This document shows, piece after piece, positions 4,901 through 46,716 of a DNA stretch of 64,000 nt; the first letter of the stretch is position 1, and each line of letters begins with the position of its first letter. The notes under the pieces are model-generated. The model worked only from the letters and a program-made list of their open reading frames with translations. It made no database searches and was not told where the DNA came from. A program made the position numbers and the translations under genes. The DNA is from Clavelina lepadiformis (taxonomy: Eukaryota > Chordata > Ascidiacea > Aplousobranchia > Clavelinidae): contig NC_135246.1 in assembly GCF_947623445.1 (NCBI RefSeq), forward strand, positions 1,862,501-1,926,500, given 5' to 3'.

Positions 4901-5495
4901 TTTGAAGAAGGGGCAAATGTCTCATTTTATCACTTAATGTGTAGTTAAATTACCAAGAGTACAATCGCGATTACCTTTTGCATACAAAGTATAGGCATGC
5001 CTACGACTACACCATACTCGAATATGACAGAATTCACATACCTCTATCTCCCGTTGTATATACGATTAATACATAGAGTGGATATTTTGGCCTTAAATAC
5101 ATATTTTCTTCGTTCTCATGCCAAGTTTTACCTACATCCTGCACGCGATCTTGAAATTTGAATCACTTCATTTTCTAGGTTAATTCCAAGGCCAAAACAC
5201 AAAACTGACCATGTTGCCCCTGATTGGAGTAAACAGATTTTAAAAACCCTACGTAAGAGTCTAACAAACTCAGAAAAGTCTAAGGTTTTCACAAAAAATT
5301 TTCCTTCATACATAGCACTCGTCATATTAACTTTACCCGATGAGAAACTTTTCGTACGTTTACAGAACTGCTGTTTTTATGTTAATATTTGAAGCTTGTT
5401 TTTTACGCATTAAAATAAGTTTTACGGCCCAATTTGTGTACAAAGTAAGTAAGTCAGCAATGTACCATACACGAAACAGGAAGATTTTAACAAAT

Positions 5496-5792
5496 AAGAG
5501 TTGAGTCCAACTATATTAACCGGGCAACGACACTCGACCTATTCACGGGTGCTGTCCCGCTACTGGTCAAGGCAGGAACTTTTGGCTGCTCCCTTTCGGA
5601 CCTGACCCGATTCGTTCCTCCTTGGACAACCTGGGCACCTTATGTTCCCATAAGACGACCATATTGACGCTGAGCTTAGCGCGGACACCTGCTCGACATA
5701 GGTCCAAGTACCGCACATTTCCCAGTTTCAAGTTGTTCAACAACTCTAGCTTCCAAGTAACTGGATTACAGGCGTGCGCCACAACGCCCGGC
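5496..5792 (-). ncRNA. SRP RNA (7SL), unit 1
   Basis: Full-length 7SL-type RNA. The 5' end GCCGGGCG begins the Alu domain, with TGGCGCACGCCTGTAATCC-like sequence containing the internal promoter A box. The S domain has GTGTCCGCGCTAAGCTCAGC followed by TCAATATGG. Helix 8 has a GAAA tetraloop flanked by CAGGTCC and GGGAGCAG, the SRP54-binding asymmetric loop. The RNA is the scaffold of the signal recognition particle, which targets secretory proteins to the ER. The usual six-T terminator is replaced here by CTCTTATTTG, so termination may be poor. Confidence 0.85.
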
Positions 5793-5980
5793 GAGCATAC
5801 AGCGACTAAATGGAGCGTATAAACATCAAAATATTTTTGGAACGTTGAGATTTGATTTCCATATACGAAACAAATAAATCTCAATTTGATTCTTTAAAAA
5901 CTGCCTCAAAGTTTACAAATGTACATTCTGTGATTAAGCCAATATTTGGCGTTTATACTGTGAGTGGATACATTCGAAAG

Positions 5981-6053
5981 CGAGCACGGCAGGACTCGAA
6001 CCTGCAATCTTCTGATCCGAAGTCAGACGCGTTATCCATTACGCTACGTGCCC
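5981..6053 (-). tRNA. tRNA-Arg-TCG: tRNA-Arg(TCG), unit 1
   Basis: 73 nt cloverleaf. Acceptor GGGCACG pairs with CGTGCTC, discriminator G. D arm AGCGTAATGGATAACGC, anticodon loop CTTCGGA, T arm GCAGG-TTCGAGT-CCTGC. Decodes CGA arginine codons, and CGG by wobble. No intron. This copy has the array consensus sequence. Confidence 0.95.
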
Positions 6054-6395
6054 TGTCAAGGAAAAGTAATCAACGTAACTTACATCAATACGAGATTGGT
6101 GTAATCTGAATCTGTTAGTGCAGCACCTCGTTCACATGGCAAATTCTTCCAAATACAGGACTGACCTGAAAATTTCGTTAAATGCATGACAGATCCCCCC
6201 GCACCAGTTATTTGCAAAAGTGCTCCTGAGTCCTGCTTAAACTAACAATTTCACCACATGAAAGAGATTGCTCGTGTCCGTTAAGCATTAACTTCTTATG
6301 TCTCAAATCCTTTCTCGGTAAAATAAACTGGTAGATATTTGGATTTTAAAACTAATCAAAATTTTACTATTAGCTTTAATTGTCTACGAATTCGT

Positions 6396-6400
6396 AAAAA
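6396..6400 (-). terminator. Pol III T5 terminator after tRNA-Arg(ACG), unit 1
   Basis: Five T residues on the minus strand, 8 bases past the tRNA 3' end. Most other units have lost this run. Confidence 0.6.
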
Positions 6401-6407
6401 GTTGGAA

Positions 6408-6480
6408 CGAGCGCACCAGGATTCGAACCTGGAATCTTATGATCCGTAGTCAGACGCGTTATCCATTGCGCCAAGCACCC
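6408..6480 (-). tRNA. tRNA-Arg-ACG: tRNA-Arg(ACG), unit 1, degenerate
   Basis: Recognisable from the ACG anticodon loop (CTACGGA) and the TTCGAAT T loop. It carries a mismatch at the base of the acceptor stem and one in the anticodon stem, absent from other copies, so it is probably a decaying edge copy. A T5 terminator (complement of 6396-6400) follows closely. Confidence 0.7.
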
Positions 6481-7214
6481 ACAAGCTTTTACAAAATGTC
6501 GATTACGTAATCCAGTTTAAATAAATTTACCTCAGTTACAATTTCAATAATTTAAATGCATTTATACATAACAACACTTTGGTAACGTCAAGGTGCGTGT
6601 TTTAGGAGATGTATATATTTGAAGAAGGGGCAAATGTCTCATTTTATCACTTAATGTGTAGTTAAATTACCAAGAGTACAATCGCGATTACCTTTTGCAT
6701 ACAAAGTATAGGCATTCCTACGACTACACCATACTCGAATATGACAGAATTCACATACCTCTATCTCCCGTTGTATTAACGATTAATACATAGAGTGGAT
6801 ATTTTGGCCTTAAATACAAATTTTCTTCGTTCTCATGCCAAGTTTTACCTATATCCTGATGCACGCGATCTTGAAATTTGAATCACTTCATTTTCTAGGA
6901 TAATTCCAAGGCCAAAACACAAAACCGACCATGTTGCCCTGATTGGTGTAAACAGATTTTAAAAACCCTACGTAAGAGTCTAACAAACTCAGAAAAGTCT
7001 AAGGTTTTCACAAAAAATTTTCCTTCATACATAGCACTCGTCATATTAACTTTACCCGATGAGAAACTTTTCGTACGTTTACAGAACTACTGTTTTTATG
7101 TTAATACTTGAAGTTTGTTTTTTACGTATTAAAATAAGTTTTACGGCCCAATTTGTTTACAAAGTAAGTAAGTCAGCAGTGTACCATACACGAAACAGGA
7201 AGATTTTAACAAAT

Positions 7215-7511
7215 AAGAGTTGAGTCCAACTATATTAACCGTGCTACGACACTCGGCCTATTCACGGGTGCTGTCCCGCTACTGGTCAAGGCAGGAACTT
7301 TTGGCTGCTCCCTTACGGACCTGACCCGGTTCGTTCCTTCTTGGACAACTTGGACACTTTACGTTCCCATAAGACGGCCATATTGACGCTGAGCTTAACG
7401 CGGACACCTGCTCGACATAGGTCCAAGTAGCGCACATTTCCCAATTTCAAGTTGTTCAACAACTCCAGCTTCCTAGTAACTGGATTACAGGCGTGCGCCA
7501 CAACGCCCGGC
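7215..7511 (-). ncRNA. SRP RNA (7SL), unit 2
   Basis: Full length, with the 5' GCCGGGCG end intact. The helix 8 tetraloop is GTAA rather than GAAA, still GNRA class. As in unit 1, the T-run terminator is interrupted (TTATTTG). Confidence 0.83.
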
Positions 7512-7699
7512 GAGCATACAGCGACTAAATGGAGCGTATAAACATCTAAATATTTTTCGAACGTCGAGATTTGATTTCAATTTACAAAACAAATAAATCT
7601 CAATTTGTTTCTATAAAAACTGCCTCAAACTTTACAAACGTACATTGTGTGAATAAGCCAATAGTTGGCTTTTATACTGTGAGTTGATTCATTCGAAAG

Positions 7700-7772
7700 C
7701 GAGCACGGCAGGACTCGAACCTGCAATCTTCTGATCCAAAGTCAGACGCGTTATCCATTACGCTACGTGCCC
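7700..7772 (-). tRNA. tRNA-Arg(TCG)-type body with anticodon TTG, unit 2
   Basis: Same 73-nt body as the other TCG genes, but the loop reads CTTTGGA instead of CTTCGGA. Positions 34-36 are therefore TTG, which pairs with CAA (Gln). All stems are intact. It could be a misdecoding tRNA, a neutral edge mutation or an unexpressed copy. Confidence 0.88.
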
Positions 7773-8119: not shown

Positions 8120-8126
8120 GCTTGAA

Positions 8127-8199
8127 CGAGCGCGCCAGGATTCGAACCTGGAATCTTCTGATCCGTAGTCAGACGCGTTATCCATTGCGCCACGCACCC
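8127..8199 (-). tRNA. tRNA-Arg-ACG: tRNA-Arg(ACG), unit 2
   Basis: 73 nt. Acceptor GGGTGCG with CGCGCTC (G-U tolerated), discriminator G. Anticodon loop CTACGGA, T arm CCAGG-TTCGAAT-CCTGG. The anticodon A34 would be edited to inosine and read CGU, CGC and CGA arginine codons. Array consensus sequence. Confidence 0.96.
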
Positions 8200-8535
8200 A
8201 CAAGTTTTTACAAAATGTCATTTACGTAATCCCTTTAAATGAATTTACCTCAGTTAAAATTTCAATATATTAAATGCATTTATACATAACAAAACATTAG
8301 TTAAGTCAAGGTGCTTGTTTTAGGAGATGTATTGTATATATTTGAAGAAGGGGCAAATGTCTGATTTTATCACGTAATTTGTAGTAAATTACCAAGAATA
8401 CAGTCGCGATTACCTTTTGCATACAAAGTATAGGTATGCCTACGATTACACCATACTCGTATATGACAGAATTCACGTACCTCTAACTCCCACTGTAAAT
8501 AGGATTAATATATAGATTGGATGTTTTGCCCTTAA

Positions 8536-9361: not shown

Positions 9362-9659
9362 AGAGAGTTGAGTCCAACTATATTAACCGGGCTACGAGAC
9401 TCGGCCTATTCACGGGTGCTGTCCCGCTACTGGTCAACGCGGGAACTTTTGGCTGCTCCCTTTTGGACCTGACCCGGTTCGTTCCTCTTTAGACAACCTG
9501 GACACCTTAAGTTTCCATAAGACGACCATATTGACGCTGAGCTTAGCGCGGACACCTGCTCGACATAGGTCCAAGTACCGCACATTTCCCAGTTTCAAGT
9601 TGTTCAACAACTCCAGCTTCCAAGTAACTGGATTACAGGCGCGCGCCACAACGCCCGGC
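9362..9659 (-). ncRNA. SRP RNA (7SL), unit 3
   Basis: Full length, terminator TTTT. The helix 8 tetraloop is AAAA instead of GAAA, which breaks the GNRA rule in this copy. Confidence 0.88.
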
Positions 9660-9847: not shown

Positions 9848-9920
9848 CGAGCACGGCAGGACTCGAACCTGAAATCTTCTGATCCGAAGTCAGACGCGTT
9901 ATCCATTACGCTACGTGCCC
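9848..9920 (-). tRNA. tRNA-Arg-TCG: tRNA-Arg(TCG), unit 3
   Basis: As the consensus copy except for one change that gives a mismatch at the outer pair of the T stem (TCAGG with CCTGC). Confidence 0.92.
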
Positions 9921-10267: not shown

Positions 10268-10274
10268 TTTTGAA

Positions 10275-10347
10275 CGAGCGCGCCAGGATTCGAACCTGGA
10301 ATCTTCTGATCCGTAGTCAGACGCGTTATCCATTGCGCCACGCACCC
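10275..10347 (-). tRNA. tRNA-Arg-ACG: tRNA-Arg(ACG), unit 3
   Basis: Consensus body. A T5 run (complement of 10263-10267) terminates it. The 5' flank differs from other units: cacccaatattgatttc replaces the usual cccacaagcttttac. Confidence 0.95.
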
Positions 10348-10671
10348 AATATTGATTTCGTAATCCGGTTTAAATGAATTTAACTCAGTTAAAATTTCAA
10401 TACTTTAAATGCATTTGTACATACCAAAACTTTAATTACGTCAAGGTGCTTGTTTTAGGAGATGCACTGTGTATATTTAAAGAAGGGGCAAGAGTCTGAT
10501 TTTATGAATTAATGTGTAGTAAAATTACCAAGAATACAGTCGCGATTACTTTTTGCATACAAAGTATAGGTATGCCTGCGACTACACCATACTGGTATAC
10601 GACAGATTTCACATACCTCTATCTCCTGCTGTATATAGGATTAATGTTTGGAGTGCATATTTTGGCCTTAA

Positions 10672-11495: not shown

Positions 11496-11793
11496 AAAGA
11501 GTTGAGTCCAACTATATTAACCGGGCTACGACACTCGGCCTATTCACGGGTGCTGTCCCGCTACTGGTCAACGCGGGAACTTTTGGTTGCTCCCTTTCGG
11601 ACCTGACCCGGTTCGTTCCTCTTTAGACAACCTGGACACCTTAAGTTTCCATAAGACGACCATATTGACGCTGAGCTTAGCGCGGACACCTGCTCGACAT
11701 AGGTCCAAGTACCGCACATTTCCCAGTTTCAAGTTGTTCAACAACTCCAGCTTCCAAGTAACTGGATTACAGGCGCGCGCCACAACGCCCGGC
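11496..11793 (-). ncRNA. SRP RNA (7SL), unit 4
   Basis: Full length with six-T terminator and GAAA helix 8 loop. The sequence matches the array consensus closely. Confidence 0.93.
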
Positions 11794-11981: not shown

Positions 11982-12054
11982 CGAGCACGGCAGGACTCGA
12001 ACCTGCAATCTTCTGATCCGAAGTCAGACGCGTTATCCATTACGCTACGTGCCC
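11982..12054 (-). tRNA. tRNA-Arg-TCG: tRNA-Arg(TCG), unit 4
   Basis: Consensus sequence; all stems paired. Confidence 0.95.
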
Positions 12055-12408
12055 TGTTAAGGAAAAGTATTCAACGTAACTTACATCAATACGAGATTGG
12101 TGTAATCTTAATCTGTTAGTGCAGCATCTCGTTCACATGGCAAGTTCTTCCAAGTACAGGACTGATCTGAAAATTTCGTTAAATGCATGACAGATCATCC
12201 TGCGCCAGTTATTTGCAAAAGTGCTATTGAGTCCTGCTTAAACTAACAATTTCACCACATGAAACAGATTGCCCGTGTCCGTCAAGTATAAACTTCATAT
12301 GTCTCAAATCCTTTCTCGGTAAATGAAACTGGTAGGTATTTGGATTTTAAAACTAAGCAAAATTATCTTATTAGTTTTGATTGTCTACGAATTCGTAGAA
12401 AGTTTGAA

Positions 12409-12481
12409 CGAGCACGCCAGGATTCGAACCTGGAATCTTCTGATCCGTGGTCAGACGCGTTATCCATTGCGCCACGCACCC
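12409..12481 (-). tRNA. tRNA-Arg-ACG: tRNA-Arg(ACG), unit 4, with C33
   Basis: The anticodon loop reads CCACGGA: the nearly universal U33 before the anticodon is C. A second change gives a G-U pair in the acceptor stem. Likely impaired if expressed. The T5 terminator is lost. Confidence 0.88.
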
Positions 12482-12757
12482 AATATTGATTTCGTAATCC
12501 GGTTTAAATGAATTTAACTCAGTTAAAATTTCAATACTTTAAATGCATTTGTACATACCAAAACTTTGGTTACGTCAAGGTGCTTGTTTTAGGAGATGTG
12601 CGGTGTATATTTGAAGAAGGGGCTAGAGTCTGATTTTTTGAATTAATGTGTAGTAAAATTACCAAGAATACAGTCGCGATTACTTTTTGCATACAAAGTA
12701 TAGGTATGCCTGCGACTACGCCATACTGGTATACGACAGATTTCACATACCTCTATC

Positions 12758-13880: not shown

Positions 13881-14178
13881 AAAGAGTTGAGTCCAACTAT
13901 ATTAACCGGGCTACGACACTCGACCTATTCACGGGTGCTGTCCCGCTACTGGTCAACGCGGGAACTTTTGGCTGCTCCCTTTCGGACCTGACCCGGTTCG
14001 TTCCTCCTTAGACAATCTGGACACCTTAAGTTTCCCTAAGACGACCATATTGACGCTGAGCTTAGCACGGACACCTGCTCGACGTAGGTCCAAGTACCGC
14101 ACATTTCCCAATTTCAAGTTGTTCAACAACTCCAGCTTCCAAGTAACTGGATTACAGGCGCGCGCCACAACGCCCGGC
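13881..14178 (-). ncRNA. SRP RNA (7SL), unit 5
   Basis: Full length, six-T terminator. Shares the variant ACGTCGAGC (for ATGTCGAGC) in the Alu/S junction with units 7 and 8. Confidence 0.92.
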
Positions 14179-14366: not shown

Positions 14367-14439
14367 CGAGCACGGCAGGACTCGAACCTGCAATCTTCTG
14401 ATCCGAAGTCAGACGCGTTATCCATTACGCTACGTGCCC
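14367..14439 (-). tRNA. tRNA-Arg-TCG: tRNA-Arg(TCG), unit 5
   Basis: Consensus sequence. Confidence 0.95.
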
Positions 14440-14796
14440 TGTTAAGGAAAAGTATTCAACGTAACTTACATCAATACGAGATTGGTGTAATCTGAATCCG
14501 TTGGTGCAGCATCTCGTTCACATGGCAAATCCTTACAAGTACAGGACTGACCTAAAAATATTTCGTTAAATGCATGACAGATCATCCTGCACCAGTTATT
14601 TGCAAACGTGCTCTTGAGTTCTGCTTTAAACTAACAATTTCACCACATGGAACAGATTGCCCGTTTCCGTCAAGTATAAACTTCACATGTCTCAAATCCT
14701 TTCTCGGTAAATGAAACTGGTAGATATTTGGATTTTAAAACTAAGTAAAAGTATTTTATTAGTTTTGATTGTCTACGAATTCGTAGAAAGTTTGAA

Positions 14797-14869
14797 CGAG
14801 CGCGCCAGGATTCGAACTTGGAATCTTCTGATCCGTAGTCAGACGCGTTATCCATTGCGCCACGCACCC
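14797..14869 (-). tRNA. tRNA-Arg-ACG: tRNA-Arg(ACG), unit 5
   Basis: Consensus except for one T-stem change giving an A-C mismatch, shared with unit 7. No T5 terminator. Confidence 0.92.
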
Positions 14870-15207
14870 ACAAGCTTTTACAAAATATAGATTTCGTAAA
14901 ATGGTTTAAATGAATTTACCTCAGTTAAAATTTCAATACTTTAAATGCATTTGTTCATACCAAAACTTTGGTTACGTCAAAGTGCTTGTTTTAGGAGATG
15001 TACGGTGTATATTTGAAGAAGGGGTAAGAATCTGATTTTATGACTTAATGTGTAGTAAAATTACCAAGAAGACAGTCGCGATTACTTTTTGCATACAAAG
15101 AAAAAGTATGCCTGCGACCACACCATACTGGTATACGACAGATTTCACATACCTCTATCTCTCGCTGTATATAGGATTAATATATAGATTGCATATTTTG
15201 GCCTTCA

Positions 15208-16037: not shown

Positions 16038-16335
16038 AAAGAGTTGAGTCCAACTATATTAACCGGGCTACGACACTCGAGCTATTCACGGGTGCTGTCC
16101 CGCTACTGGTCAACGCGGGAACTTTTGGCTGCTCCCTTTCGGACCTGACCCGGTTCGTTCCTCCTTAGACAATCTGGACACCTTAAGTTTCCCTAAGACG
16201 ACCATATTGACGCTGAGCTTAGCACGGACACCTGCTCGACATAGGTCCAAGTACCGCACATTTCCCAGTTTCAAGTTGTTCAACAACTCCAGCTTCCAAG
16301 TAACTGGATTACAGGCGCGCGCCACAACGCCCGGC
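16038..16335 (-). ncRNA. SRP RNA (7SL), unit 6
   Basis: Full length, six-T terminator. Carries the variant GAATAGCTCGAG in helix 5, shared with units 9 and 16. Confidence 0.93.
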
Positions 16336-16523
16336 GAGCCTGCAACCACTAAATGGAACGTATAAACATCAAATTATTTTTGGAACGTCGAGATTTGATT
16401 TCCATATACGAAAGAAATAAATCCCATTTTGGTTGTTTGAAAACTGCCTCAATGTTTACAAATATACATTGTGTGAATAAGCCAATGTTTCGCGTTTATA
16501 CTGCGAGTGGATACATTCGAAAT

Positions 16524-16596
16524 CGAGCACAGCAGGACTCGAACCTGCAATCTTCTGATCCGAAGTCAGACGCGTTATCCATTACGCTACGTGCCC
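16524..16596 (-). tRNA. tRNA-Arg-TCG: tRNA-Arg(TCG), unit 6, with ACG 5' flank
   Basis: The body is TCG type with one acceptor G-U pair. Its 5' flank switches directly to the cacaagcttttac sequence that normally precedes the ACG gene. The ACG gene and ~357 bp of spacer are deleted, giving a 1727-bp unit with a single tRNA. Confidence 0.94.
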
Positions 16597-16934
16597 ACAA
16601 GCTTTTACAAAATATAGATTTCGTAAAATTGTTTAAATGAATTTAACTCAGTTAAAATTTCAATACTTTAAATGCATTTGTACATACCAAAACTTTGGTT
16701 ACGTCAAGGTGCTTGTTTTAGGAGATGTACGGTGTATATTTGAAGAAGGGGCAAGAGTTTGATTTTATGACTTAATGTGTAGTAAAATTACCAAGAATAC
16801 AGTCGCGATTACTTTTTGCATACAAAGAAAAGGTATGCCTGCGACTACACCATACTGGTATACGACAGATTTCACATACCTCTATCTCCCGCTGTATATG
16901 GGATTAATATATAGAGTGCATATTTTGGCCTTCA

Positions 16935-17764: not shown

Positions 17765-18062
17765 AAAGAGTTGAGTCCAACTATATTAACCGGGCTACGA
17801 CACTCGACCTATTCACGGGTGCTGTCCCGCTACTGGTCAACGCGGGAACTTTTGGCTGCTCCCTTTCGGACCTGACCCGGTTCGTTCCTCCTTAGACAAT
17901 CTGGACACCTTAAGTTTCCCTAAGACGACCATATTGACGCTGAGCTTAGCGCGGACAACTGCTCGACGTAGGTCCAAGTACCGCACATTTCCCAATTTCA
18001 AGTTGTTCAACAACTCCAGCTTCCAAGTAACTGGATTACAGGCGCGCGCCACAACGCCCGGC
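17765..18062 (-). ncRNA. SRP RNA (7SL), unit 7
   Basis: Full length, six-T terminator. One private change in the S domain (GCAGTTGTCCGCGC). Confidence 0.92.
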
Positions 18063-18250: not shown

Positions 18251-18323
18251 CGAGCACGGCAGGACTCGAACCTGCAATCTTCTGATCCGAAGTCAGACGC
18301 GTTATCCATTACGCTACGTGCCC
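18251..18323 (-). tRNA. tRNA-Arg-TCG: tRNA-Arg(TCG), unit 7
   Basis: Consensus sequence. Confidence 0.95.
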
Positions 18324-18680
18324 TGTTAAGGAAAAGTATTCAACGTAACTTACATCAATACGAGATTGGTGTAATCTGAATCCGTTGGTGCAGCATCTCG
18401 TTCACATGGAAAATCCTTACAAGTACAGGACTGACCTAAAAATATTTCGTTAAATGCATGACAGATCATCCTGCACCAGTTATTTGCAAACAAGCTCTTG
18501 AGTTCTGCTTTAAACTAACAATTTCACCACATGGAACAGATTGCCCGTTTCCGTCAAGTATAAACTTCACATGTCTCAAATCCTTTCTCGGTAAATGAAA
18601 CTGGTAGATATTTGGATTTTAAAACTAAGTAAAAGTATTTTATTAGTTTTGATTGTCTACGAATTCGTAGAAAGTTTGAA

Positions 18681-18753
18681 CGAGCGCGCCAGGATTCGAA
18701 CTTGGAATCTTCTGATCCGTAGTCAGACGCGTTATCCATTGCGCCACGCACCC
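18681..18753 (-). tRNA. tRNA-Arg-ACG: tRNA-Arg(ACG), unit 7
   Basis: Same T-stem A-C mismatch as unit 5; otherwise consensus. Confidence 0.92.
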
Positions 18754-19091
18754 ACAAGCTTTTACAAAATATAGATTTCGTAAAATGGTTTAAATGAATT
18801 TACCTCAGTTAAAATTTCAATACTTTAAATGCATTTGTACATACCAAAACTTTGGTTACGTCAAGGTGCTTGTTTTAGGAGATGTACGGTGTATATTTGA
18901 AGAAGGGGCAAGAATCTGATTTTATGACTTAATGTGTAGTAAAATTACCAACAAGACAGTCGCGATTACTTTTTGCATACAAAGAAAAAGTATGCCTGCG
19001 ACCACACCATACTGGTATACGACAGATTTCACATACCTCTATCTCCCGCTGTATATAGGATTAATATATGGAGTGCATATTTTGGCCTTCA

Positions 19092-19918: not shown

Positions 19919-19924
19919 AAAAAA
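19919..19924 (-). terminator. Pol III terminator of SRP RNA, unit 8
   Basis: Six Ts on the minus strand just after CTCAACTC, the 3' end of the RNA. The same run occurs after the full-length SRP genes of units 4-14 and 16-20 (six Ts, seven in unit 14). Confidence 0.85.
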
Positions 19925-20827: not shown

Positions 20828-20837
20828 AAAGTTTGAA

Positions 20838-31373: not shown

Positions 31374-31498
31374 CGCTGAGCTTAGCGCGGACACCTGCTC
31401 GACATAGGTCCAAGTACCGCACATTTCCCAGTTTCAAGTTGTTCAACAACTCCAGCTTCCAAGTAACTGGATTACAGGCGCGCGCCACAACGCCCGGC
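31374..31498 (-). pseudogene. Truncated SRP RNA, unit 13 duplication
   Basis: Only the 5' 125 nt (Alu domain and start of helix 5) are present. The S domain and 3' strand are missing. It arose by a 495-bp partial tandem duplication and cannot fold as a complete SRP RNA. Confidence 0.9.
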
Positions 31499-31686: not shown

Positions 31687-31759
31687 TGAGCACGGCAGGA
31701 CTCGAACCTGCAATCTTCTGATCCGAAGTCAGACGCGTTATCCATTACGCTACGTGCCC
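31687..31759 (-). tRNA. tRNA-Arg-TCG: tRNA-Arg(TCG), unit 13 second copy
   Basis: Identical to the first copy, including discriminator A. The flanks differ by only a base or so (ttgatac for tggatac), so the duplication is recent. Confidence 0.94.
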
Positions 31760-32116
31760 TGTTAAGGAAAAGTATTCAACGTAACTTACATCAATACGAG
31801 ATTGGTGTAATCTGAATCCGTTGGTGCAGCATCTCGTTCACATGGCAAATCCTTACAAGTACAGGACTGACCTAAAAATATTTCGTTAAATGCATGACAG
31901 ATCATCCTGCACCAGTTATTTGCAAAAGTGCTCTTGAGTTCTACTTTAAACTAACAATTTCACCACATGGAACGGATTGCCCGTTTCCGTCAAGTATAAA
32001 CTTCACATGTCTCAAATCCTTTCTCGGTAAATGAAACTGGTAGATATTTGGATTTTAAAACTAAGTAAAAGTATTTTATTAGTTTTGATTGTCTACGAAT
32101 TCGTAGAAAGTTTGAA

Positions 32117-32189
32117 CGAGCGCGCCAGGATTCGAACCTGGAATCTTCTGATTCGTAGTCAGACGCGTTATCCATTGCGCCACGCACCC
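32117..32189 (-). tRNA. tRNA-Arg-ACG: tRNA-Arg(ACG), unit 13
   Basis: Consensus except A37. Confidence 0.94.
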
Positions 32190-32527
32190 ACAAGCTTTTA
32201 CAAAATATAGATTTCGTAAAATGGTTTAAATGAATTTACCTCAGTTAAAATTTCAATACTTTAAATGCATTTGTACATACCAAAACTTTGGTTACGTCAA
32301 AGTGCTTGTTTTAGGAGATGTACGGTGTATATTTGAAGAAGGGGCAAGAATCTGATTTTATGACTTAATGTGTAGTAAAATTACCAAGAATACAGTCGCG
32401 ATTACTTTTTGCATACAAAGAAAAGGTATGCCTGCGACTACACCATACTGGTATACGACAGATTTCACATACCTCTATCTCCCGCTGTATATAGGATTAA
32501 TATATAGAGTGCATAATTTGGCCTTCA

Positions 32528-33358: not shown

Positions 33359-33656
33359 AAAGAGTTGAGTCCAACTATATTAACCGGGCTACGACACTCG
33401 ACCTATTCACGGGTGCTGTCCCGCTACTGGTCAACGCGGGAACTTTTGGCTGCTCCCTTTCGGACCTGACCCGGTTCGTTCCTCCTTAGACAACCTGGAC
33501 ACCTTAAGTTTCCCAAACACGACCATATTGACGCTGAGCTTAGCGCGGACACCTGCTCGACATAGGCCCAAGTACCGCACATTTCCCAGTTTCAAGTTGT
33601 TCAACAACTCCAGCTTCCAAGTAACTGGATTACAGGCGCGCGCCACAACGCCCGGC
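33359..33656 (-). ncRNA. SRP RNA (7SL), unit 14
   Basis: Full length; seven-T terminator. Private change in helix 6 (GTGTTTGGGAAACTT) weakens that stem. Confidence 0.91.
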
Positions 33657-33845: not shown

Positions 33846-33918
33846 CGAGCACGGCAGGACTCGAACCTGCAATCTTCTGATCCGAAGTCAGACGCGTTAT
33901 CCATTACGCTACGTGCCC
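33846..33918 (-). tRNA. tRNA-Arg-TCG: tRNA-Arg(TCG), unit 14
   Basis: Consensus sequence. Confidence 0.95.
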
Positions 33919-34275
33919 TGTTAAGGAAAAGTATTCAACGTAACTTACATCAATACGAGATTGGTGTAATCTGAATCCGTTGGTGCAGCATCTCGTTCAC
34001 ATGGCAAATCCTTACAAGTACAGGACTGACCTAAAAATATTTCGTTAAATGCATGACAGATCATCCTGCACCAGTTATTTGCAAAAGTGCTCTTGAGTTC
34101 TACTTTAAACTAACAATTTCACCACATGGAACAGATTGCCCGTTTCCGTCAAGTATAAACTTCATATGTCTCAAATCCTTTCTCGGTAAATGAAACTGGT
34201 AGATATTTGGATTTTAAAACTTAGTAAAAGTATTTTATTAGTTTTGATTGTCTACGAATTCGTAGAAAGTTTGAA

Positions 34276-34348
34276 CGAGCGCGCCAGGATTCGAACCTGG
34301 AATCTTCTGATCCGTAGTCAGACGCGTTATCCATTGCGCCACGCACCC
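34276..34348 (-). tRNA. tRNA-Arg-ACG: tRNA-Arg(ACG), unit 14
   Basis: Consensus body, no T5 terminator. Confidence 0.95.
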
Positions 34349-34686
34349 ACAAGCTTTTACAAAATATAGATTTCGTAAAATGGTTTAAATGAATTTACCT
34401 CAGTTAAAATTTCAATACTTTAAATGCATTTGTACATACCAAAACTTTGGTTACGTCAAGGTGCTTCTTTTAGGAGATGTACGGTGTATATTTGAAGAAG
34501 GGGCAAGAGTCTGATTTTATGACTTAATGTGTAGTAAAATTACCAAGAATACAGTCGCGATTACTTTTTGCATACAAAGAAAAGGTATGCCTGCGACTAC
34601 ACCATACTGGTATACGACAGATTTCACATACCTCTATCTTCCGCTGTATATAGGATTAATATATAGAGTGCATATTTTGGCCTTCA

Positions 34687-35451: not shown

Positions 35452-35501
35452 CCCCCAGCTTCCAAGTAACTGGATTACAGGCGCGCGCCACAACGCCCGG
35501 C
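35452..35501 (-). pseudogene. SRP RNA remnant, unit 15
   Basis: Only about the first 50 nt remain. A deletion of about 312 bp relative to other units joins ttttacg directly to cagcttcc through a run of eight C. The run occurs in no other unit and may mark a repair scar or an assembly patch. Confidence 0.88.
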
Positions 35502-35689: not shown

Positions 35690-35762
35690 CGAGCACGGCA
35701 GGACTCGAACCTGCAATCTTCTGGTCCGAAGTCAGACGCGTTATCCATTACGCTACGTGCCC
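35690..35762 (-). tRNA. tRNA-Arg-TCG: tRNA-Arg(TCG), unit 15
   Basis: One anticodon-stem change gives an A-C mismatch at pair 31-39 (CTTCGGACCAG). Confidence 0.91.
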
Positions 35763-36119
35763 TGTTAAGGAAAAGTATTCAACGTAACTTACATGAATAC
35801 GAGATTGGTGTAATCTAAATCCGTTGGTGCAGCATCTCGTTCACATGGCAAATCCTTACAAGTACAGGACTGACCTAAAAATATTTCGTTAAATGCATGA
35901 CAGATCATCCTGCACCAGTTATTTGCAAAAGTGCTCTTGAGTTCTGCTTTAAACTAACAATTTCACCACATGGAACAGATTGCCCGTTTCCGTCAAGTAT
36001 AAACTTCATATGTCTCAAATCCTTTCTCGGTAAATGAAACTGGTAGATATTTGGATTTTAAAACTAAGTAAAAGTATTTTATTAGTTTTGATTGTCTACG
36101 AATTCGTAGAAAGTTTGAA

Positions 36120-36192
36120 CGAGCGCGCCAGGATTCGAACCTGGAATCTTCTGATCCGTAGTCAGACGCGTTATCCATTGCGCCACGCACCC
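36120..36192 (-). tRNA. tRNA-Arg-ACG: tRNA-Arg(ACG), unit 15
   Basis: Consensus sequence. Confidence 0.95.
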
Positions 36193-36530
36193 ACAAGCTT
36201 TTACAAAATACAGATTTCGCAATATGGTTTAAATGAATTTACCTCAGTTAAAATTTCAATACTTTAAATGCATTTGTACATACCAAAACTTTGGTTACGT
36301 CAAAGTGCTTGTTTTAGGAGATGTACAGTGTATATTTGAAGAAGGGGCAAGAGTTTGATTTTATGACTTAATGTGTAGTAAAATTACCAAGAATAAAGTC
36401 GCGATTACTTTTTGCATACAAAGAAAAGGTATGCCTGCGACTACACCATACTGGTATACGACAGATTTCACATACCTCTATCTTCCGCTGTATATAGGAT
36501 TAATATATAGAGTGCATATTTTGGCCTTCA

Positions 36531-37360: not shown

Positions 37361-37658
37361 AAAGAGTTGAGTCCAACTATATTAACCGGGCTACGACACT
37401 CGAGCTATTCACGGGTGCTGTCCCGCTACTGGTCAACGCGGGAACTTTTGGCTGCTCCCTTTCGGACCTGACCCGGTTCGTTCCTCCTTAGACAATCTGG
37501 ACACCTTAAGTTTCCCTAAGACGACCATATTGACGCTGAGCTTAGCGCGGACACCTGCTCGACATAGGTCCAAGTAACGCACATTTCCCAGTTTCAAGTT
37601 GTTCAACAACTCCAGCTTCCAAGTAACTGGATTACAGGCGCGCGCCACAACGCCCGGC
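37361..37658 (-). ncRNA. SRP RNA (7SL), unit 16
   Basis: Full length, six-T terminator; GAATAGCTCGAG variant as in units 6 and 9. Confidence 0.93.
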
Positions 37659-37846: not shown

Positions 37847-37919
37847 CGAGCACAGCAGGACTCGAACCTGCAATCTTCTGATCCGAAGTCAGACGCGTTA
37901 TCCATTACGCTACGTGCCC
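37847..37919 (-). tRNA. tRNA-Arg-TCG: tRNA-Arg(TCG), unit 16
   Basis: Acceptor G-U pair identical to unit 6; otherwise consensus. Confidence 0.94.
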
Positions 37920-38276
37920 TGTTAAGTAAAAGTATTCAACGTAACTTACATCAATACGAGATTGGTGGAATCTGAATCCGTTGGTGCAGCATCTCGTTCA
38001 CATGGCAAATCCTTACAAGTACAGGACTGACCTAAAAATATTTCGTTAAATGCATGACAGATCATCCTGCACCAGTTATTTGCAAAAGTGCTCTTGAGTT
38101 CTGCTTTAAACTAACAATTTCACCACATGGAACGGATTGCCCGTTTCCGTCAAGTATAAACTTCACATGTCTCAAATCCTTTCTCGGTAAATGAAACTGG
38201 TAGATATTTGGATTTTAAAACTAAGTAAAAGTATTTTATTAGTTTTGATTGTCTACGAATTCGTAGAAAGTTTGAA

Positions 38277-38349
38277 CGAGCGCGCCAGGATTCGAACCGG
38301 GAAACTTCTGATTCGTAGTCAGACGCGTTATCCATTGCGCCACGCACCC
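38277..38349 (-). tRNA. tRNA-Arg-ACG: tRNA-Arg(ACG), unit 16, degraded
   Basis: A37 plus two further changes: a C-T mismatch in the T stem and an altered variable-loop base (GTTTCCCGG for GATTCCAGG). Still folds overall, but less likely to be functional. Confidence 0.88.
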
Positions 38350-38687
38350 ACAAGCTTTTACAAAATACAGATTTCGCAATATGGTTTAAATGAATTTACC
38401 TCAGTTAAAATTTCAATACTTTAAATGCATTTGTACATACCAAAACTTTGGTTACGTCAAAGTGCTTGTTTTAGGAGATGTACAGTGTATATTTGAAGAA
38501 GGGGCAAGAGTTTGATTTTATGACTTAATGTGTAGTAAAATTACCAAGAATAAAGTCGCGATTACTTTTTGCATACAAAGAAAAGGTATGCCTGCGACTA
38601 CACCATACTGGTATACGACAGATTTCACATACCTCTATCTTCCGCTGTATATAGGATTAATATATAGAGTGCATATTTTGGCCTTCA

Positions 38688-39518: not shown

Positions 39519-39816
39519 AAAGAGTTGAGTCCAACTATATTAACCGGGCTACGACACTCGACCTATTCAAGGGTGCTGTCCCGCTACTGGTCAACGCGGG
39601 AACTTTTGGCTGCTCCCTTTCGGACCTGACCCGGTTCGTTCCTCCTTAGACAACCTGGACACCTTAAGTTTCCCTAAGACGACCATATTGACGCTGAGCT
39701 TAGCGCGGACACCTGCTCGACATAGGTCCAAGTACCGCACATTTCCCAGTTTCAAGTTGTTCAACAACTCCAGCTTCCAAGTAACTGGATTACAGGCGCG
39801 CGCCACAACGCCCGGC
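39519..39816 (-). ncRNA. SRP RNA (7SL), unit 17
   Basis: Full length, six-T terminator; CCCTTGAATAGG as in unit 10. Confidence 0.93.
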
Positions 39817-40004: not shown

Positions 40005-40077
40005 CGAGCACGGCAGGACTCGAACCTGCAATCTTCTGATCCGAAGTCAGACGCGTTATCCATTACGCTACGTGCCC
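40005..40077 (-). tRNA. tRNA-Arg-TCG: tRNA-Arg(TCG), unit 17
   Basis: Consensus sequence. Confidence 0.95.
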
Positions 40078-40434
40078 TGTTAAGGAAAAGTATTCAACGT
40101 AACTTACATGAATACGAGATTGGTGTAATCTAAATCCGTTGGTGCAGCATCTCGTTCACATGGCAAATCCTTACAAGTACAGGACTGACCTAAAAATATT
40201 TCGTTAAATGCATGACAGATCATCCTGCACCAGTTATTTGCAAAAGTGCTCTTGAGTTCTGCTTTAAACTAACAATTTCACCACATGGAACAGATTGCCC
40301 GTTTCCGTCAAGTATAAACTTCATATGTCTCAAATCCTTTCTCGGTAAATGAAACTGGTAGATATTTGGATTTTAAAACTAAGTAAAAGTATTTTATTAG
40401 TTTTGATTGTCTACGAATTCGTAGAAAGTTTGAA

Positions 40435-40507
40435 CGAGCGCGCCAGGATTCGAACCTGGAATCTTCTGTTCCGTAGTCAGACGCGTTATCCATTGCGCCA
40501 CGCACCC
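40435..40507 (-). tRNA. tRNA-Arg-ACG: tRNA-Arg(ACG), unit 17
   Basis: Same A-A anticodon-stem mismatch as unit 10. Confidence 0.92.
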
Positions 40508-40851
40508 ACAAGCTTTTACAAAAAATAAATTTCGTAAAATGGTTTAAATGAATTTACCTCAGTTAAAATTTCAATACTTTAAATGCATTTGTACATACCA
40601 AAACTTTGGTTACGTCAAGGTGCTTGTTTTAGGAGATGTACGGTGTATATTTGAAGAAGGGGCAAGAATCTGATTTTACAACTTAATGTGTAGTAAAATT
40701 ACCAAGAAGACAGTCTCGATTACTTTTTGCATACAAAGAAAAGGTATGCCTGCGACTACACCATACTGGTATAGGCCTACGACAGATTTCACATACCTCT
40801 ATCTCCCGCTGTATATAGGATTAATATATAGAGTGCATATTTTGGCCTTCA

Positions 40852-41681: not shown

Positions 41682-41979
41682 AAAGAGTTGAGTCCAACTA
41701 TATTAACCGGGCTACGACACTCGACCTATTCACGGGTGCTGTCCCGCTACTGGTCAACGCGGGAACTTTTGGCTGCTCCCTTTCGGACCTGACCCGGTTC
41801 GTTCCTCCTTATACAACCTGGACACCTTAAGTTTCCCTAAGACGACCATATTGACGCTGAGCTTAGCGCGGACACCTGCTCGACATAGGTCCAAGTACCG
41901 CACATTTCCCAGTTTCAAGTTGTTCAACAACTCCAGCTTCCAAGTAACTGGATTACAGGCGCGCGCCACAACGCCCGAC
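41682..41979 (-). ncRNA. SRP RNA (7SL), unit 18
   Basis: Full length, six-T terminator. The 5' end is GTCGGGCG, with the second base changed. Confidence 0.91.
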
Positions 41980-42167: not shown

Positions 42168-42240
42168 CGAGCACGGCAGGACTCGAATCTGCAATCTTCT
42201 GATCCGAAGTCAGACGCGTTATCCATTACGCTACGTGCCC
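42168..42240 (-). tRNA. tRNA-Arg-TCG: tRNA-Arg(TCG), unit 18
   Basis: A T-stem change gives an A-C mismatch next to the T loop (GCAGA-TTCGAGT). Confidence 0.91.
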
Positions 42241-42597
42241 TGTTAAGGAAAAGTATTCAACGTAACTTACATCAATACGAGATTGGTGTAATCTGAATCC
42301 GTTGGTGCAGCACCTCGTTCACATGGCAAATCCTTACAAGTACAGGACTGACCTAAAAATATTTCGTTAAATGCGTCACAGATCATCCTGCACCAGTTAT
42401 TTGCAAAAGTGCTCTTGAGTTCTGCTTTAAACTAACATATTCACCACATGGAACAGATTGCCCGTTTCCGTCAAGTATAAACTTCATATGTCTCAAATCC
42501 TTTCTCGGTAAATGAAACTGGTAGATATTTGGATTTTAAAACTAAGTAAAAGTATTTTATTAGTTTTGATTGTCTACGAATTCGTAGAAAGTTTGAA

Positions 42598-42670
42598 CGA
42601 GCGCGCCAGGATTCGAACCTGGAATCTTCTGATCCGTAGTCAGACGCGTTATCCATTGCGCCACGCACCC
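42598..42670 (-). tRNA. tRNA-Arg-ACG: tRNA-Arg(ACG), unit 18
   Basis: Consensus sequence. Confidence 0.95.
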
Positions 42671-43006
42671 ACAACTTTTACAAAAATTAATTTCGTAAAA
42701 TGGTTTAAATGAATTTACCTCAGTTAAAATTTCAATACTTTAAATGCATTTGTACATACCAAAACTTTGGTTACGTCAAAGTGCTTGTTTTAGGAGATGT
42801 ACGGTGTATATTTGAAGATGGGGCAAGAGTTTGATTTTATGACTTAATATGTAGTAAAATTACCAAGAATACAGTCGCGAGTACTTTTTGCATACAAAGA
42901 AAAGGTATCCCAGCGACTACACCATACTTGTATACGACAGATTTCACATACCTCTATCTCCCGCTGTATATAGGATTAATATATAGAGTGCATATTTTGG
43001 CCTTCA

Positions 43007-43835: not shown

Positions 43836-44133
43836 AAAGAGTTGAGTCCAACTATATTAACCGGGCTACGACACTCGACCTATTCACGGGTGCTGTCCCG
43901 TTACTGGTCAACGCGGGAACTTTTGGCTGCTCCCTTTCGGACCCGACTCGGTTCGTTCCTCCTTAGACAACCTGGACACCTTATGTTTCCCTAAGACGAC
44001 CATATTGACGCTGAGCTTAGCGCGGACACCTACTCGACATAGGTCCAAGTACCGCACATTTCCCAGTTTCAAGTTGTTCAACAACTCCAGCTTCCAAGTA
44101 ACTGGATTACAGGCGCGCGCCACAACGCCCGGT
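43836..44133 (-). ncRNA. SRP RNA (7SL), unit 19
   Basis: Full length, six-T terminator. The first base is A (ACCGGGCG), and there are several S-domain changes (CGAGTAGGTGTCC, CCAGTAACGGG). Confidence 0.88.
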
Positions 44134-44321: not shown

Positions 44322-44394
44322 CGAGCACGGCAGGACTCGAACCTGCAATCTTCTGATCCGAAGTCAGACGCGTTATCCATTACGCTACGTGCCC
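44322..44394 (-). tRNA. tRNA-Arg-TCG: tRNA-Arg(TCG), unit 19
   Basis: Consensus sequence. Confidence 0.95.
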
Positions 44395-44748
44395 TGTTAA
44401 GGAAAAGTATTCAACGTAACTTACATCAATACGAGATTGGTGTAATCTGAATCCGTTGGTGCAGCATCTCGTTCACATGGCAAATTCTTACAAGTACAGG
44501 ACTGACCTGAAAATTTCGTTAAATGCATGACAGATCATCCTGCACCAGTTATTTGCAAAAGTGCTCTTGAGTCCTGCTTAAACTAACAATTTCACCATAT
44601 GGAACAGATTGCCCGTTTCCGTCAAGTATAAACTTCATATGTCTCAAATCCTTTCTCGGTAAATGAAACTGGTAGATATTTGGATTTTAAAACTAAGTAA
44701 AAGTATCTTATTAATTTTGATTGTCTACGAATTCGTAGAAAGTTTGAA

Positions 44749-44821
44749 TGAGCGCGCCAGGATTCGAACCTGGAATCTTCTGATCCGTAGTCAGACGCGT
44801 TATCCATTGCGCCACGCACCC
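44749..44821 (-). tRNA. tRNA-Arg-ACG: tRNA-Arg(ACG), unit 19
   Basis: Discriminator A; otherwise consensus. Last ACG gene of the array. Confidence 0.94.
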
Positions 44822-45158
44822 ACAAGCTTCTACAAAATATAGATTTCTTAAAGAGGTTTAAATGAATTTACCTCAGTTAAAATTTCAATACTTTAAATGC
44901 ATTTGTACATACCAAAACTTTGGTTACGTCAAGTGCTTGTTTTAGGAGATGTACGGTGTATATTTGAAGAAGAGGCAAGAGTCTGATTTTACAACTTAAT
45001 GTGTAGTAAAATTACCAAGAAGACAGTCTCGATTACTTTTTGCATACAAAGAAAAGGTATGCCTGCGACTACACCATACTGGTATACGACAGATTTCACA
45101 TACCTCTATCTCCCGCTGTATATAGGATTAATATATAGAGTGCATATTTTGGCCTTAA

Positions 45159-45587
45159 GTTGGCCTTTGGTCGAACACCAAAAACTAAGATCTTTATGAA
45201 TTTGTTGTACTCCTACGTAGGGCTTTAAAATAGCAGTTTAGACCAATCGAAAAACAGCATGTTTTCAAGCCTGGGAACTACCCTTGCAGTTGGCGTGCTT
45301 CAATGTCCCAGGTCGCATGCAGAACTAGGCTCAAAAGTAGCATGAAAGTAGCCAAGTTCGATTTTTTAGACCAAAATTTTAGTGTTTATTTTGCGTCTTT
45401 GTAAAAAACGTTTGAATCGTGTTTTTTGATGGCTTTTTATGGAATGATAGTTCAAAGCATACTAAATTGCCATGCAAAATTTCAGAAAGCCCCATAAAAG
45501 ATTTTTTGAGTAACCAGTCTTTCAGTAAAATCACTGTATAAAAATACAAACAAAGATTTTATGGTATTTTTGGTGTTTAGCCCCTGC
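45159..45587. mobile_element. TTAA-site MITE, unit 20
   Basis: Left flank TTAA as in units 3-5, with a short local rearrangement (gttggcctttggtcg) at the left end. Confidence 0.6.
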
Positions 45588-45993
45588 TGAAATACAAATT
45601 TTCTACTTACTCATGCCAAATTTTACGTACGTCTTGAAGGCGATCTTAAAATTATGAAACAATTCATTTTGTAGGATAATTCCAAGGCCAAAACACCAAA
45701 CCCACCATATTGCCCCTGATTGGTGTAAACATATTTTAAAAGCCTTACGTAAGAGTCTAACAAAATCAGAAAAGAAGTTTAAGTTTTTCACAGATACGTT
45801 TGTTTCATACTTAGCACTCGTAATATTATCTTTACGCTATGAGAACCTTTTCGTTCATTTACACAACTACTGTTTTTATGTAAATATTTGAAGTTTCTTT
45901 TTTAAACTTTAAAATTAGTTTTACGGCCCAATTTGTGTACAAAGTAAGTAAGTGTGCAATGTACCATGCACGAAACAGGAAACGTTTAGCAAA

Positions 45994-46291
45994 AAAGAGA
46001 TGAGTCCAACTATATTAACCGGGCTACGACACTCGACCTATTCACGGGCACTGTCCCGCTACTGGTCAACGCGGGAACGTTTGTCTGCTCCCTTTCGGAC
46101 CTGACCCGGTTCGTTCCTCCTTAGACAACCTGGACACCTTAAGTTTCCCTAAGACGACCATATTGACGCTGAGCTTAGCGCGGACACCCGCTCGAAATAG
46201 GTCCAAGTACCGCACATTTCCCAGTTTCAAGTTGTTCAACAACTCCAGCTTCCAAGTAACTGGATTACAGGCGCACGCCACAACGCCCGGC
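45994..46291 (-). ncRNA. SRP RNA (7SL), unit 20
   Basis: Full length, six-T terminator, but more diverged: CTCATCTC at the 3' end, TTTCGAGCGGGTGTCC in the S domain, and a TATA-like box changed to CTTATACG. Confidence 0.87.
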
Positions 46292-46479
46292 GAGCCTACA
46301 ACCACTAAATGGAACGTATAAGCATCAAATTATTTTTGGAACGTCGAGATTTGATTTCCATATACGAAATAAATAAATCCCGTTTTAGTTGTTTGAAAAC
46401 TGCCTCAATGTTTACAAATATACATTGTGTGAATAAGCCAATGTTTTGCGTTTATACTACGAGTGGATACATTCGAAAT

Positions 46480-46552
46480 CGAGCACGGCAGGACTCGAAC
46501 CTGCAATCTTCTGATCCGAAGTCAGACGCGTTATCCATTACGCTACGTGCCC
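46480..46552 (-). tRNA. tRNA-Arg-TCG: tRNA-Arg(TCG), unit 20
   Basis: Consensus sequence. Last intact gene of the array; no ACG gene follows. Confidence 0.95.
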
Positions 46553-46716
46553 TGTTAACAGCGTGCCCACAACATACAGCAACTAAATGAAGCGTATTAA
46601 CGTCTAGATCATTTTGGAACGTCGAGATTTGAAATTTTCAAGGCCAAAACACAAAACCTACCATGTTACCCCAGATTGGTCTAAACAGATTTTAAACCCC
46701 TACGTAAAAGTCTAAC
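46553..46716. repeat. Scrambled unit fragments at the right edge of the array
   Basis: About 46558-46630 resembles the region upstream of SRP RNA in units 1-2 (acatacagcaactaaatg). It is joined to a piece of the spacer (caaggccaaaacacaaaacc onward). No gene is intact. Confidence 0.75.

Follow-up and report, generated by a model that had tools for sequence, protein, structure and literature searches.

Chromosome 7 of Clavelina lepadiformis carries a 289-kb tandem array of a composite unit that joins an SRP RNA gene with tRNA-Arg(ACG) and tRNA-Arg(TCG), and we regard this locus, with considerable confidence, as a Pol III array that evolves in concert, much like rDNA, and that provides the majority of SRP RNA and Arg(CGN) tRNA genes. 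Similarity to the unit spans C7:1620485-1909216, and the window (the whole 64-kb stretch of DNA analysed) holds only the right end of the array, where blastn matches to one unit start and stop exactly at the limits proposed in the initial annotation, 4901 and 46716. The unit order is SRP, spacer, tRNA-Arg(ACG), tRNA-Arg(TCG) and a lead to the next SRP, with a usual period of about 2,157 bp. The features of the window are listed below (SRP RNA scores are bits against RF00017; all tRNA genes are ARAGORN calls).

4901..46716, minus strand, right-hand part of the composite array (blastn of one unit; genome continuation)
22377..24534, minus strand, reference unit used for analyses (SRP 24237-24534, ACG 22994-23068, TCG 22565-22637)
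5495..5792, minus, SRP RNA gene, 235.1
7214..7511, minus, SRP RNA gene, 217.1
9362..9659, minus, SRP RNA gene, 237.2
11496..11793, minus, SRP RNA gene, 246.1
13881..14178, minus, SRP RNA gene, 239.4
16038..16335, minus, SRP RNA gene, 241
17765..18062, minus, SRP RNA gene, 235.6
19922..20219, minus, SRP RNA gene, 241.5
22079..22376, minus, SRP RNA gene, 242.8
24237..24534, minus, SRP RNA gene, 242.5
26392..26689, minus, SRP RNA gene, 246.1
28550..28847, minus, SRP RNA gene, 248
30706..31003, minus, SRP RNA gene, 237.8
31373..31498, minus, SRP 5' fragment, 126 nt, within a 495-bp local duplication
33359..33656, minus, SRP RNA gene, 240.1
35455..35501, minus, SRP 5' fragment, 47 nt (blastn of one unit)
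37361..37658, minus, SRP RNA gene, 241.7
39519..39816, minus, SRP RNA gene, 242.4
41682..41979, minus, SRP RNA gene, 241.4
43836..44133, minus, SRP RNA gene, 222.8
45994..46291, minus, SRP RNA gene, last of the array, 236.6
5980..6053, minus, tRNA-Arg(TCG)
6407..6481, minus, tRNA-Arg(ACG)
7699..7772, minus, TCG-type tRNA with anticodon TTG (Rfam 72.4 bits)
8126..8200, minus, tRNA-Arg(ACG)
9848..9920, minus, tRNA-Arg(TCG)
10274..10348, minus, tRNA-Arg(ACG)
11982..12054, minus, tRNA-Arg(TCG)
12408..12482, minus, tRNA-Arg(ACG)
14367..14439, minus, tRNA-Arg(TCG)
14796..14870, minus, tRNA-Arg(ACG)
16523..16597, minus, tRNA-Arg(TCG), unit shorter than standard by the ACG-TCG distance (also blastn)
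18251..18323, minus, tRNA-Arg(TCG)
18680..18754, minus, tRNA-Arg(ACG)
20408..20480, minus, tRNA-Arg(TCG)
20837..20911, minus, tRNA-Arg(ACG)
22565..22637, minus, tRNA-Arg(TCG)
22994..23068, minus, tRNA-Arg(ACG)
24723..24795, minus, tRNA-Arg(TCG)
25152..25226, minus, tRNA-Arg(ACG)
26877..26951, minus, tRNA-Arg(TCG)
27308..27382, minus, tRNA-Arg(ACG)
29036..29108, minus, tRNA-Arg(TCG)
29464..29538, minus, tRNA-Arg(ACG)
31192..31264, minus, tRNA-Arg(TCG)
31687..31759, minus, tRNA-Arg(TCG), second copy of the local duplication
32116..32190, minus, tRNA-Arg(ACG)
33846..33918, minus, tRNA-Arg(TCG)
34275..34349, minus, tRNA-Arg(ACG)
35690..35762, minus, tRNA-Arg(TCG)
36119..36193, minus, tRNA-Arg(ACG)
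37847..37919, minus, tRNA-Arg(TCG)
38276..38350, minus, tRNA-Arg(ACG)
40005..40077, minus, tRNA-Arg(TCG)
40434..40508, minus, tRNA-Arg(ACG)
42168..42240, minus, tRNA-Arg(TCG)
42597..42671, minus, tRNA-Arg(ACG)
44322..44394, minus, tRNA-Arg(TCG)
44748..44822, minus, tRNA-Arg(ACG)
46480..46552, minus, tRNA-Arg(TCG), last

All 19 full-length SRP RNA genes in the window span positions 1-299 of RF00017 at 217-248 bits, above the curated gathering score of 70 bits; the twenty units counted earlier thus become, for SRP RNA, 19 full-length genes plus the two 5' fragments. The 39 tRNA genes (20 Arg-TCG, 18 Arg-ACG, and one TCG-type gene with anticodon TTG) have a cloverleaf and an anticodon and score 47-73 bits against RF00005 (ARAGORN, Rfam). 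As had been stated, a single strand is used: the 58 Rfam matches above gathering score (19 SRP, 39 tRNA) all lie on the minus strand of the window. Both tRNAs with canonical anticodons lie upstream of 15 of the 19 SRP genes, the TTG gene lies upstream of one, and three are preceded by an irregular tRNA set. The shortened unit that holds the tRNA-Arg(TCG) at 16523..16597 may be the product of an exchange between the two tRNA genes. Amplification of SRP RNA, tRNA-Arg(ACG) and tRNA-Arg(TCG) as one Pol III unit was correctly recognised (Rfam, ARAGORN), and a chance origin of the pattern is excluded.

The whole array contains 120 full-length SRP genes and 239 ARAGORN tRNA calls (117 Arg-TCG, 114 Arg-ACG, and 8 anticodon variants), every one of them on the same strand. 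SRP-to-SRP spacing is 2,100-2,200 bp in 106 of 119 intervals, both tRNAs with canonical anticodons precede 105 of the 120 SRP genes, and the array is broken by three interruptions carrying retrotransposon-like frames. A genome-wide pattern search yielded 171 tRNA-Arg matches (165 in the array, 6 outside) and 108 SRP matches (107 in the array, one outside). The exact SRP pattern recovers just 107 of the array's 120 full-length copies, so the search may have overlooked divergent SRP genes at other sites.

The genes are conserved relative to the rest of the unit. Among 106 standard units, diversity was 0.036 for SRP, 0.026 for ACG, and 0.017 for TCG, compared with 0.058 to 0.104 for non-gene parts, and when 1589 SRP-sized windows from the remainder of the unit were compared, none reached a diversity as low as that of SRP. 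The most variable part measured was the 15 bases just behind SRP, at the T-run site (0.104), with the run itself kept. Seven units near the array edges or of short type, chosen by hand, differ from a 41-unit core by 3.6% in SRP, 3.6% in ACG, 0.4% in TCG, and 9-15% in non-gene parts. Mean unit identity falls from 98.5% at lag 1 to 93.4% at lag 50, and for 112 units the closest relative is found most commonly at lags 1, 16, 2, 5, 3, and 17. One block of 16-17 units recurs in nearly identical form, with 1-13 differences per unit in pairs at lags of that size. The head-to-tail, homogenised units are those of a concertedly evolving, rDNA-like tandem array.

Such an array could also be a selfish or neutral satellite, in which a cluster that by chance carried Pol III genes was enlarged through unequal exchange, with most copies unneeded and many decaying. 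Across 98 of the 120 array SRP copies, one-sided variant cells in the stems keep the standard pair 219 times and break it 216 times, diversity is similar at paired (0.032) and unpaired (0.037) positions, and no compensatory double changes were found; the variants do not favour pairing, so that constraint on single copies is only weak. The 8 changed anticodons, the retrotransposon-like interruptions, and other small RNA arrays in this genome (5S on C4, U2, and Lys-Leu-Leu tRNA) are also in line with a satellite. However, the genes are conserved over the spacers even in the diverged edge units, and most copies retain a TATA-like box and T-run, which makes this reading rather unlikely. Assembly artefact or an inflated copy number is very improbable. 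The near-repeat of the 16-17-unit block and two pairs of identical units would fit such an error, as would HiFi fragments of 12-20 kb, which are shorter than the block, but 104 of the 106 standard units are distinct, identity decays with distance, and no N occurs in the window or the other loci examined. Moreover, the C. lepadiformis genome paper, the source of the fragment sizes, gives 117-fold HiFi coverage and QV 67.4.

The one SRP gene found outside the array by the genome-wide pattern search is solitary, lies on C1, and has CRE and TATA elements. It scores 273 bits, higher than the array copies (217-251 bits in the scored subset). Vertebrate 7SL genes have an external promoter (CRE-like and TATA-like) and a T-run terminator. 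TTTATA occurs at -31 in 111 of the 120 array SRPs and in the C1 gene, and 117 of the 120 have a T-run of at least four close to their 3' end. The only CRE-like element of the array SRPs is GACGTT, present at -54 in 116 of 120; the perfect CRE TGACGTCA of the C1 gene was found in none of the 120. Over 100 bp upstream, the array consensus and the C1 gene are identical in register at 42 positions (shuffle mean 26, P 0.0004, 5000 shuffles). Retroposed 7SL copies are dispersed on both strands, have lost the promoter, and carry an A-rich 3' end. A SINE-like origin does not fit the single locus, the single strand, the upstream region resembling that of the solitary gene, and the T-run, and no A-tail is present in the array SRP 3' consensus.

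The C1 gene differs from the array SRP consensus at 45 aligned positions, and 20 pairs standard in the array are changed, 15 of which are still standard, 4 of them through double change. These differences, together with promoters alike in TATA position and unlike in CRE, raise the tentative possibility of two SRP RNA classes, in which the C1 gene may serve housekeeping and the array bulk secretion or translation (oogenesis, budding). The oocyte and somatic 5S genes of Xenopus offer an analogy, and we know of no earlier dual SRP RNA system of this type. Sequence divergence by itself does not prove separate use, and a two-class system would extend the array reading, not oppose it.

Under the preferred reading of a homogenised Pol III array, the 2.15-kb unit brings together tRNA-Arg(ACG), tRNA-Arg(TCG), and the SRP RNA gene in a common direction, and three separate Pol III transcripts would be expected since each SRP gene comes with a TATA-like element (-31) and a T-run terminator of its own. 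The array tRNAs mostly appear to lack a close strong terminator: the first TTTT follows the TCG tRNA at +80 in 111 of 112 genes, and for the ACG tRNA it lies between +45 and +55 in the majority of genes and at +6 in 28 of 112. The tRNA-Arg pair probably came earliest, with the SRP gene and its promoter joining through DNA duplication. This order is suggested by one relic on C6, where an ACG-TCG pair and spacer are alignable with the array over 590 columns and no SRP was found in the 3,044 bases examined, and where SRP loss would look alike. Unequal exchange, acting on as many as about 17 units at once, may then have multiplied and homogenised the unit to about 120 copies, which would account for the majority of tRNA-Arg(ACG/TCG) and SRP RNA genes in the animal.

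To our knowledge, animals usually have only few functional SRP RNA genes. Didemnum belongs to the same ascidian order as Clavelina. One SRP RNA copy is reported from the fragmented draft of Didemnum vexillum (PMC5006418) and 12 candidates from S. mansoni (PMC2770079); these are metazoan SRP RNA genes like those of C. lepadiformis, and no array is described in the available parts of either source. The initial annotation knew of no such arrangement, but arrays of SRP RNA as such have been reported, and the present genome arrays further small RNA genes. Both Hydractinia genomes have tandem arrays of rRNA, U1, U2, U5, U6, U3, and tRNAs, and the H. echinata draft also has 5S, SRP RNA, and tRNA arrays (PMC11067881). 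These are likewise evenly spaced, near-identical ncRNA genes with similar spacers, but in a cnidarian, not a chordate, and the main text, in its available parts, does not mention SRP RNA and tRNA in one unit (PMC11067881). In trypanosomatids, 7SL also adjoins tRNA genes, although in mixed clusters (one of 13 genes) as opposed to a 120-fold head-to-tail array (PMC2695483). Small RNA genes of different families are linked in tandem in the 5S-tRNA arrays of mussels and a fungus, and U2 is linked with U5 in fish, but 7SL does not occur in the available text (PMC3464664), and 5S lies apart in C. lepadiformis. We found no description of a combined SRP-tRNA-Arg unit in the literature consulted.

The C9 Lys-Leu-Leu array of the same genome is likewise a multi-gene Pol III unit on one strand (about 1,180 bp), with no SRP RNA in the one unit read. 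It also bears on the proposal that the linkage was selected in order to couple the dosage of SRP with that of arginine tRNAs. All three genes multiply together by construction, but SRP54-type GTPase domain matches occur at only two loci in the genome (interpreted as an SRP54 gene and a receptor gene), and the joining of Lys and Leu tRNAs in the C9 array means that mixed units are not peculiar to secretion and suggests a general tendency to amplify. The dosage proposal is therefore unsupported and improbable, and the alternative guess in the initial annotation, that a Pol III cluster was favourably amplified, is the better fit.

Small-RNA gene arrays are already known, while the combination of SRP RNA with two tRNA-Arg genes looks new. 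In this close relative of vertebrates, about 120 SRP RNA genes share one rDNA-like locus with most of the genes detected for two arginine isoacceptors, and a single diverged SRP gene with a fuller promoter stands apart. The array and the C1 gene allow a test of separate bulk and housekeeping versions of SRP RNA in an animal, as their 45 differences make separate use directly measurable. In addition, the edge units, anticodon variants, and block duplications offer a clear test bed for the concerted evolution of Pol III genes.

The Rfam covariance model identified 19 full-length metazoan SRP RNA (7SL) genes in the window. All of them lie on the minus strand, and their scores of 217-248 bits exceed the cut-off of 70. 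The tandem array proposed in the initial annotation is thus real, although its 20 full-length 7SL genes become 19 plus two 5' fragments; its limits, 4901 and 46716, are identical to the start and end of matches to one unit. ARAGORN called 39 tRNA genes in the window (20 tRNA-Arg(TCG), 18 tRNA-Arg(ACG), and one TCG-type gene with the anticodon TTG), which confirms both isoacceptors as parts of the unit. The period is usually ~2,157 bp, and one unit of 1,727 bp is short by the distance that separates ACG from TCG, which is what an exchange between these two similar tRNA genes would produce. Within two units, no RNA family apart from SRP and tRNA was found above cut-off. A 107-aa frame in the spacer was rejected as a gene because it is open in only 8 of 106 units, its diversity is equal at the three codon positions, and it matches no Pfam family above cut-off. 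The array is flanked by pieces of genes recognized with Pfam.

Features in the window besides the regular units
31373-31498, SRP RNA gene, 5' fragment
35455-35501, SRP RNA gene, 5' fragment
7699-7772, tRNA with changed anticodon (TTG), still called by ARAGORN
51318-51581 and 52024-52284, plus strand, NIPSNAP
60911-61114 and 62546-62758, minus strand, AMP-binding enzyme
2510-2689, minus strand, galactose-3-O-sulfotransferase (below the Pfam cut-off)

When C7:1610001-1862500 was analysed together with the window (C7:1862501-1926500), the array comprised 120 full-length SRP genes on a single strand, from 1622466 to 1908791 on chromosome C7, with 117 tRNA-Arg(TCG) and 114 tRNA-Arg(ACG) genes; a further 8 tRNAs differ in their anticodon (ACA 3, TCA 2, ATG 1, GCG 1, and TTG 1). 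The spacing between successive SRP genes is 2,100-2,200 bp in 106 of 119 cases, and 105 of the 120 have both tRNAs upstream with canonical anticodons. Besides the TTG gene in the window, the tRNAs with changed anticodons, likewise called by ARAGORN, lie at C7:1730509, 1732662, 1754606, 1756757, 1791187, 1804097, and 1832121; the TCA anticodon carried by two of the array tRNAs would decode a stop codon. Similarity to the unit extends over C7:1620485-1909216 with three large interruptions, and neither the window nor the other loci analysed contain any N bases.

Interruptions of the array
C7:1622924-1628710, interruption 1, 5.8 kb
C7:1664306-1675545, interruption 2, 11.2 kb
C7:1851975-1867400, interruption 3, 15.4 kb, includes window positions 1-4900

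Judged by reading frames, the open frames of the interruptions look like Ty3/Gypsy-type gag-pol. Interruption 2 has a 2.7-kb direct repeat at its ends (99.9% identity), and one insertion inside a unit, its edges having been read by eye, has termini of the TG...CA form and a short duplication of its target. The 1.71-kb short units and the diverged units are located near the array ends and next to interruptions.

Elsewhere in the genome (209 Mb, 95 contigs searched), one SRP RNA gene was found. An exact 22-base SRP pattern gave 108 matches, 107 in the array region and one on chromosome C1, and since it skips 13 of the 120 array copies, diverged copies elsewhere would escape it; the genome-wide Rfam SRP search scored only 26 of 1050 candidates. 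The C1 match is a solitary SRP RNA gene (C1:13527165-13527463, 273 bits). An exact Arg tRNA pattern gave 171 matches, 165 in the array region and 6 elsewhere, with one on C2 and two on C6 among the matches listed. The SRP 5' pattern had no matches in a bacterial and archaeal contig collection and none in a viral one. The mitochondrial marker COX1 gave no match in the assembly. At the C6 locus (C6:5789815 region), the TCG gene is intact and the ACG gene is decayed, the spacer aligns with the array spacer (590 columns, 63% identity), and no SRP was found in the 3,044 bases examined. From these sequence features, the C6 ACG-TCG pair is possibly a relic of a unit that predated the arrival of SRP.

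Over the 100 bases that precede SRP, the array consensus and the C1 gene match in register at 42 positions, compared to a shuffle mean of 26, which favours a DNA duplication that took the promoter along. Retroposition was also considered as the origin of the array copies and was rejected because they lie on one strand at a single locus, with an upstream region similar to that of the C1 gene and a 3' consensus that has a T-run but no A-tail. TTTATA occurs at -31 of SRP in 111 of 120 array copies and in the C1 gene, and GACGTT at -54 in 116 of 120 array copies, whereas a CRE (TGACGTCA) at -58 in the C1 gene is found in 0 of 120 array copies. A run of at least four T near the SRP 3' end is present in 117 of 120 array copies. 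The array consensus differs from the C1 gene at 45 positions; of 20 pairs that are standard in the array and changed in the C1 gene, 15 remain standard, 4 of them through double change.

Nucleotide diversity among the 106 standard units, computed with the 6 short units excluded, is 0.036 in SRP, 0.026 in ACG, and 0.017 in TCG, compared to 0.058 in the long spacer (the SRP-ACG side), 0.064 between the tRNAs, and 0.066 in the lead, from TCG to the next SRP; it reaches 0.088 over the 100 bases that precede ACG and 0.104 over the 15 bases that follow SRP. SRP diversity is lower than in all 1589 SRP-length windows elsewhere in the unit. Relative to a 41-unit core, the divergence of seven hand-picked edge or short units (five of the 6 short ones plus two more) is 3.6% for both SRP and ACG, 0.4% for TCG, and 9-15% for non-gene parts. 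Counting against function, array SRP diversity is about equal at paired and unpaired positions, and T-runs are far from the ends of the array tRNA genes. Variant cells in SRP stems keep the pair in 219 cases and break it in 216, in a count over the 98 of 120 SRPs with a normalised length of 298, and no compensatory changes were found among array SRPs. Taken as sequence evidence, these data point to a real, large composite Pol III array that is probably functional.

Standard units share a mean identity of 98.5% when adjacent and 93.4% at 50 apart, and 104 of the 106 have distinct sequences. Among 112 aligned units (7 of 119 inter-SRP intervals were excluded for odd length), the nearest relative lies at a lag of 1 (25 units), 16 (18), 2 (12), 5 (11), 3 (9), or 17 (8). 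From these lags, the array seems to have been duplicated in blocks of up to ~17 units.

Didemnum vexillum belongs to the same order as the ascidian Clavelina. Its draft genome is reported to have one SRP RNA copy, and tRNA clustering varies widely among other tunicates (PMC5006418). Hydractinia genomes have many ncRNAs in tandem arrays, and the H. echinata draft contains arrays of 5S, SRP RNA, and tRNA (PMC11067881); 5S arrays joined to other gene families are well known (PMC3464664), trypanosomatids have 7SL within tRNA clusters (PMC2695483), and Schistosoma mansoni has 12 SRP candidates (PMC2770079). The arrangement had been annotated as unfamiliar, which holds for the SRP-tRNA-Arg unit, undescribed in the texts seen, but not for SRP RNA arrays, given those of H. 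echinata. The titles, abstract openings, and partial texts of the open-licence literature yielded no description of an SRP-tRNA-Arg composite array, which to that extent appears new as a combination, while small-RNA tandem arrays as such were already known.

Other small-RNA arrays occur in the same assembly, for which the counts of 5S, U2, U6, and C9 tRNA genes are lower bounds.

Other small-RNA loci
C4:14.38-14.92 and 18.17-18.53 Mb, 5S rRNA gene arrays, spacing 233 bp where read
C4 near 18.57-18.59 Mb, at least 5 U6 genes above cut-off
C4:17035987-17112588, U2 snRNA array, spacing mostly 776 bp
C9:4936555-5170352, tRNA array, ~1,180 bp per unit, single strand among the matches listed

One unit of the C9 array, as read, contains Lys(TTT), Leu(TAG), and Leu(AAG). 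Mixed small-RNA arrays are a habit of the Clavelina lepadiformis genome, which weakens the case for the special coupling of SRP and arginine tRNA dosage that had initially been suggested as a possibility. SRP54-type GTPase exons were found at two loci only, taken to be SRP54 and the receptor. With SRP RNA encoded both in the array and by the solitary C1 gene, a separate use of the two can be tested.
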